Notes under the pieces: model-generated | Seen by the model: only the letters and a program-made list of their open reading frames with translations | Database searches by the model: none | What the model was told of the DNA's origin: nothing | Made by a program: the position numbers and the translations under genes | Part shown: in pieces, positions 6,374 to 49,385 of the stretch | Layout of the letters: the number at the start of each line of letters is the position of its first letter | Position numbering within the stretch: the stretch's first letter is position 1 | Assembly (NCBI RefSeq): GCF_001486585.1 | Contig: NZ_LN909045.1 | Coordinates: 357,368-421,367 of the forward strand | Direction: 5' to 3' | DNA length: 64,000 nucleotides | Source of the DNA: Paenibacillus senegalimassiliensis | Lineage (GTDB): Bacteria; Bacillota; Bacilli; Paenibacillales; Paenibacillaceae

Positions 6374-7303
6374 TTATTTTGATACTGTGCCAAGTTCTGC
6401 TTTGTAACCCGCAGGGATGTAGGTAACAGCATTAACTTCAGTCAGCACTTGAGGGTAGACCATATCAGGGTCTGGTGGCAGCACGCGGTAGTTGACCACG
6501 GCGGTACCTTCGTTATATTCAACGCTGGCAATCTCCAGGGCGTAGCCTGGGTGTGGAGCTGTACCGGAAATAGTTACTTTCGTAATTTCTTTGGAGACAG
6601 CGTCCGTGTTTAGACTTGGGTCATACAAGTTAACTGGTTCTGGTTCGACGACCTGCGTGTTTTCAATGAATTCCAACGTCCGATATACCATACCTACCGC
6701 TTCGCTGCGGGTGATAGATTGAGTTGGATTAAACTTCTGATCCTTGTCCAGGGAGATGATTTTGCCGTTCAGCAATGTTTGAATGCTGTTAGCATAGCTA
6801 GGGTTGATTTGGTCGTTGTCGGCAATTTCTGTATATTGCAGTGTCCACGCAAATTCACCCTTGGTGTTCAGCGCCTTGAACAGCCAGTGAGTGAACTGCT
6901 CTTTGGTTACTGGACTGGAAGGTTTGATATCCTTGGGAATATCGAGCTGGTTAACTCCGGCAATGACGAAGGCCTGGGAATACCAGACGTTATCCTTGAC
7001 ATTGCTAAAGTAGTCACTGGCTTTGGGTTCTTTGATAAAAGCGAAGTCATTCAGGTTAAGGTCGAGTGCATTTACAATCAAGGTAACAGCCGCTGCACCG
7101 TTCACCTTCTCGAACGGATGGAATCGTCCGCTCAAGTCCCCTTTAATGAACCCCCGCTGCTCCAGACGTTCAATGGCCTGCTGTTCCTTGTCCCCTTTGA
7201 TGTCGTTAAAGGCGGAGGCGCTGGAGCCAAATACCATCGTAAATACAATGACCATCAGCAAGGTTAGTTTTGGTGCTTTGACTAGACGTTTCTTCTTGTT
7301 CAT
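6374..7303 (-). CDS. SLH-domain surface protein with PrcB-like C-terminal domain
   Basis: 309 residues from MNKKKRL, which follows a GGAGA-type site. A signal peptide (KLTLLMVIVFTMVFGSSASA) ends near residue 31. Three S-layer-homology repeats follow at roughly 32-85, 95-150 and 155-210, including FNDIKGDKEQQAIERL and SITRSEAVGMVYR. SLH repeats bind pyruvylated cell-wall polymer, so the protein should be wall-anchored. The last 70 residues (ALEIASVEYNEGTAVVNYRV, then PPDPDMVYPQVLTEV) resemble the C-terminal domain of PrcB, known from a spirochaete protease complex. No protease gene is adjacent. Three SLH repeats are clear; the PrcB assignment is from motif memory and less certain. Confidence 0.8.
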   Translation of the reverse strand: MNKKKRLVKAPKLTLLMVIVFTMVFGSSASAFNDIKGDKEQQAIERLEQRGFIKGDLSGRFHPFEKVNGAAAVTLIVNALDLNLNDFAFIKEPKASDYFSNVKDNVWYSQAFVIAGVNQLDIPKDIKPSSPVTKEQFTHWLFKALNTKGEFAWTLQYTEIADNDQINPSYANSIQTLLNGKIISLDKDQKFNPTQSITRSEAVGMVYRTLEFIENTQVVEPEPVNLYDPSLNTDAVSKEITKVTISGTAPHPGYALEIASVEYNEGTAVVNYRVLPPDPDMVYPQVLTEVNAVTYIPAGYKAELGTVSK

Positions 7304-7403
7304 TCCTATCTCTCCTATCATCATGAATATTATTTAATCTCCTGACGCAGAAGGACGGGCATATGTTTCAGTTTTTGAACATTTTTTTTAAAATTTAAAA
7401 TGG

Positions 7404-8183
7404 CTAGGTGAGCAATCCCGCATGGCGTAAGCCTTGGCGAATGCCCCCTTCGTCTACAGAAGAAGTAACGTAATCCGCAAATGCCAGCAGATCCGGATGA
7501 GAATTGCCCATGGCAATGCCAAGCCCTGCGGCTTGCAACATCTCTTTATCGTTCAGGCCATCGCCGAAGGCTACGGCTGCACTTAGCGGGATTCCAAGCC
7601 GCTCTAGCATCGCGGCGATGCCAACGGCCTTGGAGCCTCCCTTCAACGTGACATCCATCGCGCTCGGATGCCAGCGAATCAGGCGGAGTTGGTCGAATTG
7701 CTCCAAATAGAGATGCTCGTCCTTCTCTTCACAATGGAGGAAAGCCTGATATATCGGCGCTTTACTCCAATATTCCGGGTCGAATCCAGGCTGGATGACT
7801 TTAAGGGTAGCTACGGATTCGACAATATAGGGGTGGGCATCTGTATTGGCATAGTATTGCTCGTTACCTTGGAATACCAGCGGATGACCGTGGCTTGCGC
7901 TTAAGCTAACCAGCTTCTCCAGACTTTGCAGGGGAAGGGTCTGACTGTACAAGGTCTCGCCCTGATATACCACGTAAGCCCCGTTAAGGCTAACGAAGGA
8001 GTTAATATGAAGCAATTCGGCAATAGGCTGGAAGAAGTAAGGGGAGCGGCCGGTTGCGATAACGGGCTCGATACCTTTGCTTTTCAGTTCGGCAATAGCA
8101 TCAATAGTGTCCTGTGGCACTTCTTTGGCATCGTTGACTAACGTGCCGTCAATATCAAAAAACACAATTTGATAGTTCATCAT
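7404..8183 (-). CDS. Cof-type HAD-superfamily phosphatase
   Basis: 259 residues. HAD motif I is FFDIDGTLV near residues 8-16 (nucleophile Asp10 and acid Asp12), motif II is VIATGRS, the lysine motif is LKGGSKAVGI, and motif III/IV is FGDGLNDKEMLQAAGLGIAMGN. This is the type IIB cap (Cof) class, which dephosphorylates sugar phosphates, FMN or PLP; the substrate cannot be read from sequence. Two adjacent ATG codons follow GGAGA, so the start may be 8183 or 8180. It is probably a single gene between the SLH and SgrR-like genes. Confidence 0.93.
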   Translation of the reverse strand: MMNYQIVFFDIDGTLVNDAKEVPQDTIDAIAELKSKGIEPVIATGRSPYFFQPIAELLHINSFVSLNGAYVVYQGETLYSQTLPLQSLEKLVSLSASHGHPLVFQGNEQYYANTDAHPYIVESVATLKVIQPGFDPEYWSKAPIYQAFLHCEEKDEHLYLEQFDQLRLIRWHPSAMDVTLKGGSKAVGIAAMLERLGIPLSAAVAFGDGLNDKEMLQAAGLGIAMGNSHPDLLAFADYVTSSVDEGGIRQGLRHAGLLT

Positions 8184-44498: not shown

Positions 44499-44723
44499 CT
44501 AGATTTGCTTGCCAGAGCTGGAGGGTGGGGAGGATGGCCCTGGTCGATCTTCGCCGATGATGTTGTCAAGGCGCTGAATTTCTTCAGAAAGAGTTTGCAA
44601 TGAAGCGTCAATTTTGCCCAATTTATCACCGACGGTTTGCAGCACGTATTTGATCAAGATGAAGCAAAGCGTAACCGGGAACCCTACATTGGTAACCAAC
44701 GACACAATATCCGCTACCTGCAT
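44499..44723 (-). CDS. YvrJ-family small membrane protein
   Basis: 74 residues from the ATG at 44723, after AAGGAGG; an upstream in-frame start would cover the promoter. One hydrophobic span (IVSLVTNVGFPVTLCFILIKYVL), then an amphipathic helix with heptads (KLGKIDASLQTLSEEIQRL) and a Pro/Ser tail. SLVTNVGFPVTLCFILIKYVL matches the short YvrJ family of Bacilli. In Bacillus subtilis yvrJ is one of the few genes transcribed by SigO with RsoA, and here it faces a pair of genes resembling those two subunits, from a matching promoter. The role of YvrJ itself is unknown. Confidence 0.8.
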   Translation of the reverse strand: MQVADIVSLVTNVGFPVTLCFILIKYVLQTVGDKLGKIDASLQTLSEEIQRLDNIIGEDRPGPSSPPSSSGKQI

Positions 44724-44758
44724 GCTTATGACCTCCTTGGATTGTATTGGGCCCTTCA

Positions 44759-44793
44759 CTATATAGGGAAATGGAAGACAAGAAGTAACAACC
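44759..44793 (-). promoter_or_regulatory. Promoter motif of the yvrJ-like gene, copy A
   Basis: On the minus strand, GGTTGTTA (44793-44786) is followed after exactly 14 bases by TTTCCCTATATAG (44771-44759), 35 bases before the yvrJ-like ATG. The same two blocks at the same spacing precede the divergent sigma-like gene. Neither block resembles sigma-A hexamers at correct spacing. Confidence 0.8.
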
Positions 44794-44831
44794 ATTTATT
44801 TGGAAAAATGTTATAATAATTACAAAAACAA

Positions 44832-44868
44832 GGTTGTTAAAGGCTCGTTTGATTTTCCCTATATATAG
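44832..44868 (+). promoter_or_regulatory. Promoter motif of the sigma-like gene pair, copy B
   Basis: GGTTGTTA (44832-44839), 14 bases, then TTTCCCTATATATAG (44854-44868), 28 bases before the TTG start of the sigma-like gene. It is identical in its blocks and spacing to the divergent copy A, so the same polymerase form should use both; the obvious candidate is the sigma factor encoded here, giving autoregulation. Confidence 0.8.
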
Positions 44869-44896
44869 AAGATGAATTTGAAAGGGGGAGGTTGTT

Positions 44897-45241
44897 TTGA
44901 AAGAACATCATACCGTGTACGAGCAATATCAGAAGGAAGTGTACCGAATCGCCTGGAGAGTTCAATACAGAGCAAGGGCCGTAAGAAACCGGGAATGTTC
45001 ATTCAATGGAATCGAGCCGTCCGTCACCTGCTTCACCTCATCTTCTGATAATAAAATCGTTGTAAGACAGATGATCAGTGCGCTTCCTTCCACGACGGGG
45101 CAAACCATCATATCTAAAATATACCTTCAGGATAAAACCGAGGGGGAAGTCGCCCGCGAGTTGAATATGAGTCAGCAAGGGGTGAACAAATGGAAACGAA
45201 AAATGATCAAAGAACTGTCCCGAATGATGAAGAGTTCCTGA
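44897..45241 (+). CDS. Sigma region-4-like protein (SigO-like subunit)
   Basis: 114 residues from a TTG after GGGGGAGG. The C-terminal half (residues 65-112: LPSTTGQTIISKIYLQDKTEGEVARELNMSQQGVNKWKRKMIKELSRMM) reads as a sigma-70 region 4 helix-turn-helix, with the usual repeat of helix, turn and KxK recognition helix. The N-terminal half is helical and basic and has no region 2. That layout fits SigO (YvrI) of Bacillus subtilis, which supplies -35 recognition and needs a second small protein for the -10. The next gene overlaps it by 52 bases and the YvrJ-like gene is divergent. A phage-type small regulator is the alternative. Confidence 0.72.
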   Translation: MKEHHTVYEQYQKEVYRIAWRVQYRARAVRNRECSFNGIEPSVTCFTSSSDNKIVVRQMISALPSTTGQTIISKIYLQDKTEGEVARELNMSQQGVNKWKRKMIKELSRMMKSS

Positions 45242-45411
45242 GCCTGCTATCGAAGGTCAAGGAGAATGATCCCGATTCCATACTAGAGCTTATCGATTTG
45301 TTCAAAGGGGACATTGCACATGTCAGCCAGTTTATCCATTCGTCGCGAGAGGATGCGGTTGCCGACATTATCCTGGAGTTTTTGGAGATGATTCGTGAAG
45401 AAGACCGTTAA
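45190..45411 (+). CDS. Sigma region-2-like small protein (RsoA-like subunit)
   Basis: 73 residues. The ATG follows AAGGGGTG and lies 52 bases inside the previous gene in another frame. After an acidic head, FLSLLSKVKENDPDSILELIDLFKGDIAHVSQFI matches the start of sigma-70 region 2 (helices 1.2-2.1), as in RsoA (YvrHa) and the HTH_16 proteins of conjugative elements. AVADIILEFLEMI is the next helix. RsoA pairs with SigO to melt the -10. The long overlap suggests tight coupling so both subunits are made in equal amounts. Followed by a terminator. Confidence 0.7.
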   Translation: METKNDQRTVPNDEEFLSLLSKVKENDPDSILELIDLFKGDIAHVSQFIHSSREDAVADIILEFLEMIREEDR

Positions 45412-45569: not shown

Positions 45570-47036
45570 ATGAGGACACGGACCGGAGGTAAGGGGGCAA
45601 CTAAGCAAGCTCTGACAGGAAAGCTGTCAACGGATGCGGCGATACTAGGCTCTGTATTCGAAGACTGCTCGGATATTATGTTTCATACATTTCAAACGAT
45701 GTGGGGAACTTCCTTCCTATGCGTGTGTTGTCGTGGGTTATGTGACACGGAACGGTTGGAGCGACAGGTATTGGCTCCCTTGGAATCGGATGAGGCGGGA
45801 GTTCTTAACTTTCCGGCAGAGCGTTCTTCCAGATACCTAAGGAATCATCAGCTACAAGAAGCTCCCGTGGCATCACTGGAGGTAATCCAATCGGTTGAGC
45901 AGGCGATTCAGGGAATTTTGGATGGACAGGCACTCGTGATCAAGGAGGGAGTACCAGCCGGAGTACTGTACTCGCTTCATAAGCCGGTTGGGCGTTCTCC
46001 GGAAGAACCGGCGGCGGAATCAACCGTTCGTGGTGCACGAGATGGTTTTACCGAGTCGCTGCAGACGAATTCCTCGTTGCTGCGCATGCGTTTGAAGACA
46101 CCGGCATTCAAGCAGCGCACGCTCACGATTGGTAGTTACACTAATACCAAGGTGCTGCTGGTATATATAGATGGTGTGATTGAGTCTTCTCTGCTTGAGA
46201 AGGTCCAGGAGCGTCTTCAGCGGTTAGATATATCTAAAGTGCTGGAAAGTCAAAACATCGAGGAAGGCATCGTTGACCAACGCTTCTCGCCTTTTCCCCA
46301 AATGCTGGCTACCGAGCGTCCGGATGTCGTCGTATCCAATCTGCTGGAGGGTAGATTCGCCATTTTAATTGATGGGACTCCCTTTAGCCTGATTGCACCT
46401 GTCACCCTGTTCACGATGCTCCAATCCCCTGAGGATTACTATCAAAATATGTATATGAGTGTCTTTGTACGATGGCTCAGATACCTGTTCTTTATGTTGT
46501 CCTTATTGCTTCCTTCCGCTTATGTAGCGGTAACGACATTTCATCAAGAGATGATCCCGACCGTATTACTGCTAAGCATCGCCAGGGCTAGAGAGGAAAT
46601 TCCGTTCCCAGCCTTGATTGAGGCTCTGATCATGGAGATTTCTTTTGAAGCGCTTCGCGAGGCTGGCGTCAGGCTGCCACGCCAGGTTGGTTCTGCTGTG
46701 AGCATCGTGGGTGCATTGATTATCGGTCAGGCGGCTACCTCTGCGGGGATCGTATCCGCCCCGATGATTATTATTGTGGCTATCACAGGGATCGCTTCAT
46801 TTATGATTCCCCGTTATGCCATGAGCACCTCTACACGTTTGCTGCGATTTCCCATTATGCTGCTCGCTGGAACGATGGGATTAACGGGGGTCATGTTAGG
46901 CCTGATCCTGATCGTTATCCACTTAAGCAGCCTTCGTTCATTTGGTACACCTTATCTTGCCCCGGTGACACCTACCTCTGCTGAAGGTATGAAGGACGTG
47001 TGGTGGCGTTCTCCTCCCTGGCGCAGAGCACGCTGA
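45570..47036 (+). CDS. Spore germination receptor, GerA-type A subunit
   Basis: 488 residues. A soluble N-terminal half of about 270 residues contains TESLQTNSSLLRMRLKTP and TKVLLVYIDGVIESSLLEKVQERL, followed by the conserved VVVSNLLEGRFAILIDGTPF and SPEDYYQN. Five or so membrane spans then run to residue 460, with EIPFPALIEALIMEISFEALREAGVRLPR. These are the hallmarks of GerAA/GerKA proteins in the inner membrane of spores, which sense germinants together with GerB and GerC. The N-terminus is shorter and less conserved than usual. It is first in a four-gene operon. Confidence 0.93.
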   Translation: MRTRTGGKGATKQALTGKLSTDAAILGSVFEDCSDIMFHTFQTMWGTSFLCVCCRGLCDTERLERQVLAPLESDEAGVLNFPAERSSRYLRNHQLQEAPVASLEVIQSVEQAIQGILDGQALVIKEGVPAGVLYSLHKPVGRSPEEPAAESTVRGARDGFTESLQTNSSLLRMRLKTPAFKQRTLTIGSYTNTKVLLVYIDGVIESSLLEKVQERLQRLDISKVLESQNIEEGIVDQRFSPFPQMLATERPDVVVSNLLEGRFAILIDGTPFSLIAPVTLFTMLQSPEDYYQNMYMSVFVRWLRYLFFMLSLLLPSAYVAVTTFHQEMIPTVLLLSIARAREEIPFPALIEALIMEISFEALREAGVRLPRQVGSAVSIVGALIIGQAATSAGIVSAPMIIIVAITGIASFMIPRYAMSTSTRLLRFPIMLLAGTMGLTGVMLGLILIVIHLSSLRSFGTPYLAPVTPTSAEGMKDVWWRSPPWRRAR

Positions 47037-47076
47037 TAGCAAGATGTAATATACCCTGGAAGGAGTGACCCCGATT

Positions 47077-48198
47077 ATGCTAACTGATCAAGGGAAAATA
47101 TCGTCCGTTCAGCTTGCCTATATGATGATTCCCGCTATTCTGGCTACATCGATCCTGTCTATTCCGAGCCTGTCTGTTCAATATGCAGGACACGATATGT
47201 GGATGACTCCTCTACTTGGCTCGCTTGCTGGATTAATGAGTATTGGTGTAGCGATGGGATTGCAGCGCTTGTATCCTGGACACACACTGATTCAAGTCTG
47301 CAACGCCATTTTTGGAAGATACATAGGCAGCGTACTCGGGTTTGTATTTCTGTTCTATTTGCCCCACTTGACCGGGCTGGTCATCCAAGTATACGGAAAT
47401 TTTATCATTAGCAATGCCTTGCCGAACACGCCGCTAATTGTCATTATGGGCTCGATGGTGCTGGTCTGTGCTATTAACGTACGGCTTGGCATTGAAGTTG
47501 TGGGCCGCACGTCTCAGGTGTTCGTTACCGTATTTTTCGTATTGCTGGGGTTGACCTTTGTTCTGTTAATTCGAGAGCTCGACCCTGCTGAATTGCTTCC
47601 GTTTATGGAAAAGGGATTTCCCTCCATTGCCAAGGGGAGCTTGGCTCCTGCGGCCTGGTTCAGCGAATACATCATGCTGGCTTTTCTTCTTCCTTTCATT
47701 AATGATCATAGCCATACAGCGAAGACCTTGCTGGGTTCATGGCTACTTGTGGTCATCGCGATGATCATTACGAATTTATTCTGCCTGCTGCTTATGGGAG
47801 ATTTGACGGACAGTTTTACATTTCCCGTGATGATAGCTGCTCGTTATATCACCATCGCCGATTTTATGCAGCATATTGAGGCTGTCATTATTGCGATATG
47901 GATATTTGGCATCTTTGTAAAAATCTCGGTTTTCCTTTATGTCTTCGTGTCCTCCACCGCCGAATGGATCGGATTGAAGGATTACCGTCCGCTCGTATTT
48001 CCAGCTTCAGCACTTTGCATGGGTTACGCCTATTGGGTCACGACGGGCAGGCAAGGGGCGGATAGCCTGATTCGCGCCTCTTCGAATATCTATACACTCA
48101 TGTTCTTGCTAGTGATTCCTGCTGCGTTATACGGAATTGCCGGGCTTAAGCGTATGTGGGGCAACATCAGGAAAGGGGCGAAAGGAGGTTCGGCATGA
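47077..48198 (+). CDS. Spore germination receptor, GerB-type permease subunit
   Basis: 373 residues from the ATG at 47077, after GGAAGGAG; a GTG at 47065 would be too close to that site. About ten membrane spans, beginning ISSVQLAYMMIPAILATSILSIPSL, of the amino acid/polyamine permease fold. MQHIEAVIIAIWIFGIFVKISVFLYVFVSS is the conserved GerB region. The subunit is thought to bind the germinant. It overlaps GerC by four bases. Confidence 0.93.
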   Translation: MLTDQGKISSVQLAYMMIPAILATSILSIPSLSVQYAGHDMWMTPLLGSLAGLMSIGVAMGLQRLYPGHTLIQVCNAIFGRYIGSVLGFVFLFYLPHLTGLVIQVYGNFIISNALPNTPLIVIMGSMVLVCAINVRLGIEVVGRTSQVFVTVFFVLLGLTFVLLIRELDPAELLPFMEKGFPSIAKGSLAPAAWFSEYIMLAFLLPFINDHSHTAKTLLGSWLLVVIAMIITNLFCLLLMGDLTDSFTFPVMIAARYITIADFMQHIEAVIIAIWIFGIFVKISVFLYVFVSSTAEWIGLKDYRPLVFPASALCMGYAYWVTTGRQGADSLIRASSNIYTLMFLLVIPAALYGIAGLKRMWGNIRKGAKGGSA

Positions 48199-49385
48199 TG
48201 ACAGGACGCCTTCTTGCCCGAATCGTACTGCTCCCGCTTCTAAGCTGTACCTTGCTGCTTGGCGGTTGCTGGGATCGCAATGAAATTAATGATTTAGCCA
48301 TCGTATTGGCAACAGGAGTGGATTGGACCGATGGGGAGGTTGAGCTGGCTGCTCAAATTTTCGTGCCCCGTGGAGGGGCGGGCGAGGGGGGAGCCCCGGC
48401 AGAAAGTGCAAGCGGAGTTACTCTGATTCGGACAGCGCAGGGAACGACCATTGCTGAAGCACTCAATCGTTTGCAGCGGCAAGTGTCGCGGGAAATGTTC
48501 TGGGGGCATTGTGAAGTCATCGTGATTAGTGAAGAAGCAGGGCAACAAGGATTACGGGAATATATTGATTTTTTTCTGCGATATCCTCAATTCCGTGAGC
48601 ATGCTTATGTATTCTCCAGTAAAGGGAAAGCCAAAGAACTGTTAGCATTGCTTGATCCACTGGAACGAAATTCTGCCGAATCCTTAAGAGAGATGGCGAT
48701 TCTGGGCTTGGGAGCACGTGTGACCGTGCTGGATTTGGCGAAAGGAATTAAGGGGCCAAGTGAAACGGTCATCTTATCCCGGCTATTAGTCTCTCCTTCA
48801 ACACATACCGAGCAAAGCTCCATCGTCAATTCGCCGACGGTTAACGGTCTGAGTCTGTATAACCGGGGTTACTATGTCAAAACCGTGAAAGAGCCCTTAA
48901 GTCTTGGTGTTCTGATGCTGGCAAATGAGCTGAACAATATTATTCTTCAGGTAGAGGTTGCGGGGATTCCGGGAATCTTCTCGGTTCGTCCTCACAAGAT
49001 TGAAGCCAGATTAAAGCCCGCTATCAGAGAAGACAAGTGGAGTATGACCATCAACATAGAGACGAAGGGAGAGGTGGTGTTGAACACCACTAATGCTTCG
49101 CTCGCTAAGCAGCAGGTGATGGCGGCAGTGGAGCAGGCATGGGAAGAGGAGATGAAGCTTCTGGCAGAGCAAGCCATACAATTGGCTCAAGATGAATTGC
49201 ATGCCGATCTGTTTCAGTTTGCGGTGAAGTTCCGCCGGCATTATCCAAGGCAATGGAAGGCGCAGGAGGCACAGTGGGATGATATATTCTCCAAGCTGGA
49301 GGTGCAAGTGACGGCCCATGCCAAAATTACGGGTAGTGGTAAATCAACAACTCCTCAAGGAATACCCGGCAGTGAGAACAAGTAA
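48195..49385 (+). CDS. Spore germination receptor, GerC-type lipoprotein
   Basis: 396 residues from the ATG at 48195 (ATGA overlap, AAAGGAGG ahead). The lipoprotein signal ends LLLGGCWDRNEINDLAIVLATGVDW, the classic Ger(x)C start with acylated Cys near 23. MFWGHCEVIVISEEAGQQGLREYIDFFLRYPQFREHAYVF and SPTVNGLSLYNRGYYV are family motifs. The C-terminal domain includes DLFQFAVKFRRHYPRQWKAQEAQWDDIFSKLEVQV. It completes a GerA/B/C receptor. Confidence 0.94.
   Translation: MMTGRLLARIVLLPLLSCTLLLGGCWDRNEINDLAIVLATGVDWTDGEVELAAQIFVPRGGAGEGGAPAESASGVTLIRTAQGTTIAEALNRLQRQVSREMFWGHCEVIVISEEAGQQGLREYIDFFLRYPQFREHAYVFSSKGKAKELLALLDPLERNSAESLREMAILGLGARVTVLDLAKGIKGPSETVILSRLLVSPSTHTEQSSIVNSPTVNGLSLYNRGYYVKTVKEPLSLGVLMLANELNNIILQVEVAGIPGIFSVRPHKIEARLKPAIREDKWSMTINIETKGEVVLNTTNASLAKQQVMAAVEQAWEEEMKLLAEQAIQLAQDELHADLFQFAVKFRRHYPRQWKAQEAQWDDIFSKLEVQVTAHAKITGSGKSTTPQGIPGSENK

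Follow-up and report, generated by a model that had tools for sequence, protein, structure and literature searches.

In a 64-kb stretch of Paenibacillus senegalimassiliensis DNA (the window), the gap at 44724-44896 carries two copies of one bipartite motif. Very probably (we put the figure at about 85%), these are the cognate promoters of a sigma factor made of two proteins, whose genes occupy 44897-45411. The system would start from a basal SigA-like promoter, act in trans on a DUF4127 gene and, in relatives of the window locus, be triggered through LexA. This reading rests on sequence, namely the motif, its conservation, its co-occurrence with the gene pair, the likeness of the two proteins to sigma regions 4 and 2, and LexA-type boxes. 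The features concerned are as follows.

44499..44723, minus strand: yvrJ-like gene, 74 aa, with one hydrophobic stretch and a charged tail by eye and with PF12841 relatives
44793-44760, minus strand: motif copy GGTTGTTA-N14-TTTCCCTATATA facing the yvrJ-like gene, exact match
44809..44817, plus strand: SigA-like extended -10 element TGTTATAAT, lying between the two -35 blocks and proposed to drive basal transcription of the sigma operon
44832-44865, plus strand: motif copy GGTTGTTA-N14-TTTCCCTATATA, exact match, oriented towards the sigma-like pair, its blocks being the putative -35 and -10
44897..45241, plus strand: SigO-like gene, 114 aa, TTG start, with C-terminal sigma region 4 and an N-terminal basic helix (profiles and a model)
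45190..45411, plus strand: RsoA-like gene, 73 aa, region 2.1/2.2-like, overlapping the SigO-like gene by 52 bases

The divergent gap and the gene pair

The yvrJ-like gene begins with an ATG at 44723 (minus strand) and the sigma-like gene with a TTG at 44897 (plus strand); these bound the gap, and a GGAGG lies a few bases upstream of both starts. The motif is directional and fixed in its spacing, with one exact copy per strand, a spacer of 14 bases in both, and its TATA-type block 30-40 bases ahead of each start codon. The sequence-only reading had placed the motif on both strands, with one copy facing the yvrJ-like gene and the other the sigma-like pair; strands and coordinates confirm these directions, and the exact copies and the 14-base spacer were also found, although the outer ends it gave (44759 and 44868) overshoot by one and three bases, respectively. 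With up to three mismatches at a spacer of 14, only these two copies occur in the 64 kb of the window, and 100 dinucleotide shuffles of the window produced none, a chance expectation of 0. The exact motif with spacers of 13-15 is found twice in the whole 5.06-Mb genome and is absent from the reversed control. A chance origin of the motif pair is ruled out by the shuffles, the reversed whole-genome control and the conservation of the locus. GTGAAGG follows the yvrJ-side site, as it does many other divergent sites. The putative basal promoter TGTTATAAT at 44809-44817 was not listed by a generic promoter scan; TGNTATAAT occurs in this gap in 20 of 23 window-clade loci and 12 times on the plus strand of 398 kb elsewhere. 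Downstream of the sigma pair, GerA, spore permease and GerAC genes (45570-49385) form a spore germinant receptor operon, before which the motif is absent within three mismatches at spacer 14.

Judged by profiles and models, the two genes encode a split sigma factor of the SigO-RsoA type: one protein carries region 4, the other region 2.1/2.2. The window SigO-like protein matches TIGR02937 at 4.7e-7 (29.6 bits, below the cut-off of 42.9), and at a permissive limit (E up to 10) Sigma70_r4_2 is matched by all 32 aligned SigO-like proteins. Residues 51-113 of its model (pLDDT 79.5) match sigma region 4 with a Z of 10.6. Under the same E limit, 27 of 29 aligned RsoA-like proteins match HTH_16 (best 3.6e-8; window 0.054), so that at least one of the RsoA proteins from the B. 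subtilis-type loci L149, L150 and L152 is among them, and three of the 29 match Sigma70_r2 (best 0.0012). The ten best Foldseek matches of the RsoA-like model (pLDDT 83.5) are all sigma factors, at E values of at least 1.1 and Z scores of at most 7.2, which helical proteins can reach by chance; the model aligns to residues -1 to 66 of E. coli sigmaE with a Z of 6.6. Both window proteins align with SigO and RsoA of B. subtilis-type loci (L149 and L150; for RsoA also L152), the genes in L149 and L150 having been recognised from their order (rsoA, sigO, yvrJ, oxdC, yvrL) and sequence. The yvrJ-like protein alone is sub-threshold for PF12841 (16.7 bits vs. a cut-off of 29.5), a profile matched by all 21 aligned YvrJ relatives (E up to 10; best 8.4e-19; window 0.0053), and a YvrJ-like ORF passing the ORF filter lies near the sigma gene in 23 of 33 loci.

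Another reading of the gap is that the blocks are operators, and that the SigO-like protein is an HTH activator, ArpU- or DUF1492-like, working with SigA polymerase. Against curated cut-offs the window proteins score below, with the exception of the SigO-like protein against DUF1492 (21.9 vs. 21.5 bits), the one Pfam cut-off that it reaches; its match to phage ArpU is weak (0.0081), and the SigA-like TGTTATAAT lies nearby. Evidence against an activator comes from the directional motif of fixed spacing, whose TATA-type block stands 30-40 bases before each start codon, and from the partner, which aligns with RsoA and whose model aligns with sigma region 2. As the pair aligns with SigO-RsoA, which is described as a working sigma factor, we consider the activator reading unlikely.

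The helix beyond the stretch of sigmaE aligned with the RsoA-like model reads the -10. The RsoA-like protein ends before this helix, and sigma region 2 may therefore be cut inside, so that one chain would bind core polymerase and the other would read the -10. The N-terminus of the SigO-like protein (VYRIAWRVQYRAR...) resembles what we take to be the following ECF segment (WLYRIARN...). When the two proteins were joined as one chain, the TIGR02937 score went from 42.5 to 44.1 bits for the L107 pair (profile positions 5-163), from 26.9 to 24.4 bits for L094 and from 29.6 to 27.3 bits for the window; Pfam's Sigma70_r2 was found in none of these three chains. Given such mixed results, the internal cut stays a proposal. 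A region 2 split between core-binding and DNA-reading parts would inform how sigma factors are built.

Conservation of the motif and its candidate targets

Conservation was scored in the window and 32 named loci found via the SigO-like protein, a set from which the records nearest the window's own are perhaps missing; the nearest named locus by this protein is that of Paenibacillus sanguinis (96% identical). The core motif was taken as GGTTGT and TTTCYCTATA, with a spacer within one base of the window's. Comparison of the related gaps, a check of the kind that the sequence-only reading had suggested, found 32 of 33 loci to keep it on the sigma side with at most two mismatches: 15 are perfect, 11 differ at one position and six at two. 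These are not independent cases, since many loci are close kin or near copies and the named loci and numbered genomes largely overlap. By comparison, one of 2160 segments of 150 bases from the same loci reaches this level. On the divergent side, the motif has at most one mismatch in 20 of the 33 loci, at most three in 27 and at least four in six; the site ahead of DUF4127 is the best divergent one in L108-L112 and L114. The gene set without the motif, which had been named in advance as evidence against the promoter reading, was encountered in isolated cases only: L114, the sole locus of the 33 in which the sigma-side motif was not found, and the locus of G017.

The SigO-like gene is present in 27 of 36 genomes sampled from the genus (own included), and 25 of these 27 have the motif within one mismatch at the sigma locus. 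G017 has no locus match at this level and one match elsewhere; G001 has no match, and its locus (L099) carries the motif with two mismatches. None of the nine sigma-less genomes has the motif within one mismatch anywhere, and the comparison of matches anywhere, 26 of 27 vs. 0 of 9, gives p ~1e-7 in a Fisher test that ignores kinship. All 25 perfect matches are at sigma loci, and matches within one mismatch lie away from sigma loci at 13 of 57 places (59 genomes) vs. 11 in the reversed control. Conceivably, another sigma factor of the cell uses the motif as an ordinary promoter, and motif and pair share only a neighbourhood. Its TATATA part does resemble many -10 boxes, and a third site, before DUF4127, is found elsewhere in the genome. 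Nonetheless, a motif that is present in all but one of the sigma-bearing genomes, missing from the sigma-less ones and without excess copies elsewhere makes this alternative highly improbable. The sequence-only reading had proposed an autoregulated cognate promoter in a distant SigO relative; this is supported by the alignment of the pair with RsoA and SigO and by the co-occurrence of motif and pair, and we accordingly regard autoregulation of the predicted promoters as supported.

As a query for the regulon, a use foreseen in the sequence-only reading, the strict motif added nothing over control: four further own-genome matches at three mismatches equal the reversed control count, and a larger regulon defined in this way was rejected. 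The relaxed pattern GGTTGT-N17-21-CCYWTATA gave four own-genome matches and none in the reversed control, and it added one plausible target. Two matches are the window sites, one lies in a transporter-like reading frame, and one, on contig 10, starts 82 bases ahead of the start codon (ATG) of a DUF4127 (PF13552) gene. DUF4127 is the divergent neighbour of the sigma gene, with the site, in L108-L112 and L114 (six of 10 distant loci), L086 and L156. All ten distinct DUF4127 genes seen (L086, L108-L112, L114, L156, L187 and L230) have an upstream GGTTGT site, a count biased by L187 and L230, which are not beside a sigma gene and were found through the motif; the L156 site is a weaker copy. GTGAAGG follows the site in six of the 10, as it does on the yvrJ side in the window. 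A single locus of P. glacialis (L108) has sites for the sigma operon itself, yvrJ and DUF4127, the yvrJ site being weak (three mismatches, spacer 13). In 11 distant-group genomes (that of L113 not among them), a short pattern gave 14 matches vs. 12 in the control, and those that stand out are at sigma loci or, in one case, before an unlinked DUF4127 gene. These observations suggest that the DUF4127 gene of the own genome is probably a target of the split sigma factor, and that the regulon appears to comprise about three promoters (own operon, yvrJ and DUF4127). A sequence query with one DUF4127 member found no relative of solved structure, and a literature search found no paper on the family.

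Several further sites and genes were observed. Related proteins of ~155 aa follow GGTTGT sites on the L115 chromosome (6658-7125 and 7381-7848) and on the Paenibacillus plasmids L221 (8872-9330) and L224 (10123-10587); they have glycine-rich hydrophobic stretches and no Pfam match above cut-off, and are a candidate output. As a general target the family was rejected, since homologues occur in four of 59 genomes and no GGTTGT site was seen before those. A third GGTTGT...CCCTTATA-like site lies 3' of the RsoA-like gene in L088 (6585), L089, L090 and L092 (6583), L091 (6581), L097 (6594), L098 (6595) and L099, and after a lone sigma gene in L102 and L103 (6427). These sites point into a region where no clear gene was found, and no such third site was seen in the window. 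L102 (P. macerans) and L103 (P. oralis) have a second SigO-like gene, ~12 and ~24 kb from the main one, each with its own motif and, under the ORF filter, no RsoA-like or YvrJ-like neighbour.

LexA-type boxes and the proposed circuit

The element GAACNNNNGTTC is what we take to be the LexA box consensus, and we checked this use against lexA genes only. Two boxes of this type precede lexA in each of four genomes, the own one and those of three relatives, and one of the own-genome lexA boxes, GAACAAATGTTC, is identical to boxes in distant loci. The exact box lies upstream of the sigma gene, near the sigma-side -35, in all 10 distant-clade loci (L107-L115 and L118), and is absent from the remaining 392 kb of the 33 loci. 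It is found in none of the 23 window-clade gaps and nowhere in the 64-kb window; one-mismatch boxes in four of the 23 gaps (L088, L093, L097 and L098) were left out of the counts.

The association extends to other Bacilli. A profile of eight diverse RsoA proteins gave matches in 113 of 398 genomes of Bacilli; many of the weak ones are, to judge from frame length, ordinary sigma factors. Of the best 30 loci, 17 have the exact box, compared with a mean of 1.1 and a maximum of 4 in 60 rounds of shuffling. Fourteen of the 17 boxes precede the SigO-like frame by 16-107 bases; in L189, L206 and L218, the longest frame contains the box, and its real start codon may be further in. The 13 loci without an exact box include the B. 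subtilis-type L194, L195, L198 and L210. Seven of 19 further split-sigma regions, some from genomes shared with the 30-locus set, also have it. As controls, 25 yvrJ loci at which no split sigma factor was recognised gave no exact box, and of 17 unrelated loci one had it (L124). On a tree of 39 SigO-like proteins with weak deep support, the box is clustered (two changes vs. 11 shuffled). Taken together, split-sigma relatives are probably under SOS control, a link that does not extend to the window. Among the papers listed by a literature search, none tied LexA to RsoA, YvrJ or split sigma factors in its title or the opening of its abstract. A readable motif, an unlinked target and LexA-type boxes at 17 of 30 loci give split sigma factors a general role that can be tested; the system would serve as a natural switch with two inputs and a clear operator, and would open the DUF4127 and YvrJ families to a first regulatory approach.

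We propose the following mechanism. Basal transcription from the SigA-like TGTTATAAT promoter would yield a little of both proteins. The small one, resembling sigma region 2.1/2.2, would bind core polymerase; the larger would read GGTTGT through its region 4, and its N-terminal helix may supply the part that reads the -10. Together, they would fire both GGTTGT...CCCTATA promoters, one amplifying the sigma operon itself and the other turning on the YvrJ-like protein, and the DUF4127 gene elsewhere in the genome would be fired in trans. In related loci, a putative LexA operator lies in the basal promoter region, so DNA damage would start the loop there; in the window clade, no such operator was found.

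This absence raises the question of whether the window copy is a decaying remnant, in a clade that lost its LexA trigger and whose loop no longer fires. The lack of an exact LexA-type box in 23 window-clade loci and an own OxdC homologue without a site are in keeping with decay. On the other hand, the motif, TGTTATAAT, the gene overlap and open frames have been kept over much divergence, and we give decay a small but real chance.

Relation to known systems and possible output

SigO-RsoA is reported to transcribe oxdC-yvrL, yvrJ and its own operon (PMC8103513) and is treated as a B. subtilis system that answers acid and cell-wall stress. Like SigO-RsoA (YvrI-YvrHa), the window system has region 4 and region 2 on adjacent proteins with yvrJ nearby. 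Unlike it, the SigO-like protein has 114 aa, compared with 192 aa in L149, and the RsoA-like protein has no counterpart of the C-terminal stretch (PGFWEF...) of the L149 type. The sequence-only reading had called for comparison with published SigO promoters, and a comparison with B. subtilis-type regions found no counterpart: neither GGTTGT nor GTTGT occurs in the sigO-yvrJ-oxdC regions of the B. subtilis-type loci L149, L150 and L152, and the window motif is thus not the B. subtilis SigO promoter sequence. In the window genome, the site precedes the DUF4127 gene and not the OxdC homologue, which has no motif in 1.5 kb upstream, and oxdC was rejected as a target. As far as motif and targets indicate, the window system is not a SigO orthologue by specificity or regulon.

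In their two-domain layout, the window proteins resemble ECF sigma factors, and the joined L107 pair passes the TIGR02937 cut-off (44.1 vs. 42.9 bits). They differ in that the window sigma factor is split into two genes, its neighbours are of the GH18, YvrJ-like and GerA types, and no anti-sigma gene was recognised among them. A third comparison is with UviA-UviB of Clostridium perfringens bacteriocin plasmids, for which a LexA-binding site, a group V sigma factor, a BhlA holin and an amidase are described (PMC4459074, PMC9527704). The likeness consists of a sigma factor with a small membrane-type protein, and of a LexA-type site in distant relatives of the window locus. Unlike the split pair, UviA is described as one chain with regions 2.4 and 4.2; moreover, the window clade is without an exact LexA-type box and YvrJ matches BhlA holins weakly (PF10960, four of 21 aligned members; E up to 10, best 0.026).

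For a domain scan, eight genes next to other split-sigma loci were chosen by hand. Three carry Amidase_3 (L163, L160 and L054), one Amidase_2 (L050, below cut-off), one Peptidase_C39_2 (L163) and one a sub-threshold GH46 (L164), and those in L115 and L038 gave no domain match. Sigma-free YvrJ genes lie beside two short conserved proteins in L037, L040, L043, L052 and other loci; we take these to be DUF1659- and DUF2922-like. A phage origin was rejected, since the window SigO-like and L062 RsoA-like proteins have no match in 50,697 phage records; they match seven and 10 plasmid records, respectively.

A wider scenario, to which we give even odds, would make the split sigma factors of Bacilli an SOS-triggered class, with region 2 cut and with YvrJ as a holin-like export or lysis output, often beside peptidoglycan amidases; the window clade would have been rewired off SOS while keeping the loop and the DUF4127 target. 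If this is true, LexA would hold the sigma operon and DNA damage would start a self-amplifying two-protein sigma factor, the equivalent in Bacilli of UviA-UviB.

YvrJ, sigma-like and HTH genes were also observed on Priestia megaterium plasmids (L222, 7048-8228; L225, 4937-6010), with an exact LexA-type box before the sigma-like gene in both (at 7249 and 4937, respectively). In L222, the order is amidase, YvrJ, sigma-like, HTH and peptidoglycan-binding genes, and this row of amidase, YvrJ and sigma-like genes with a LexA-type box resembles UviA-UviB.
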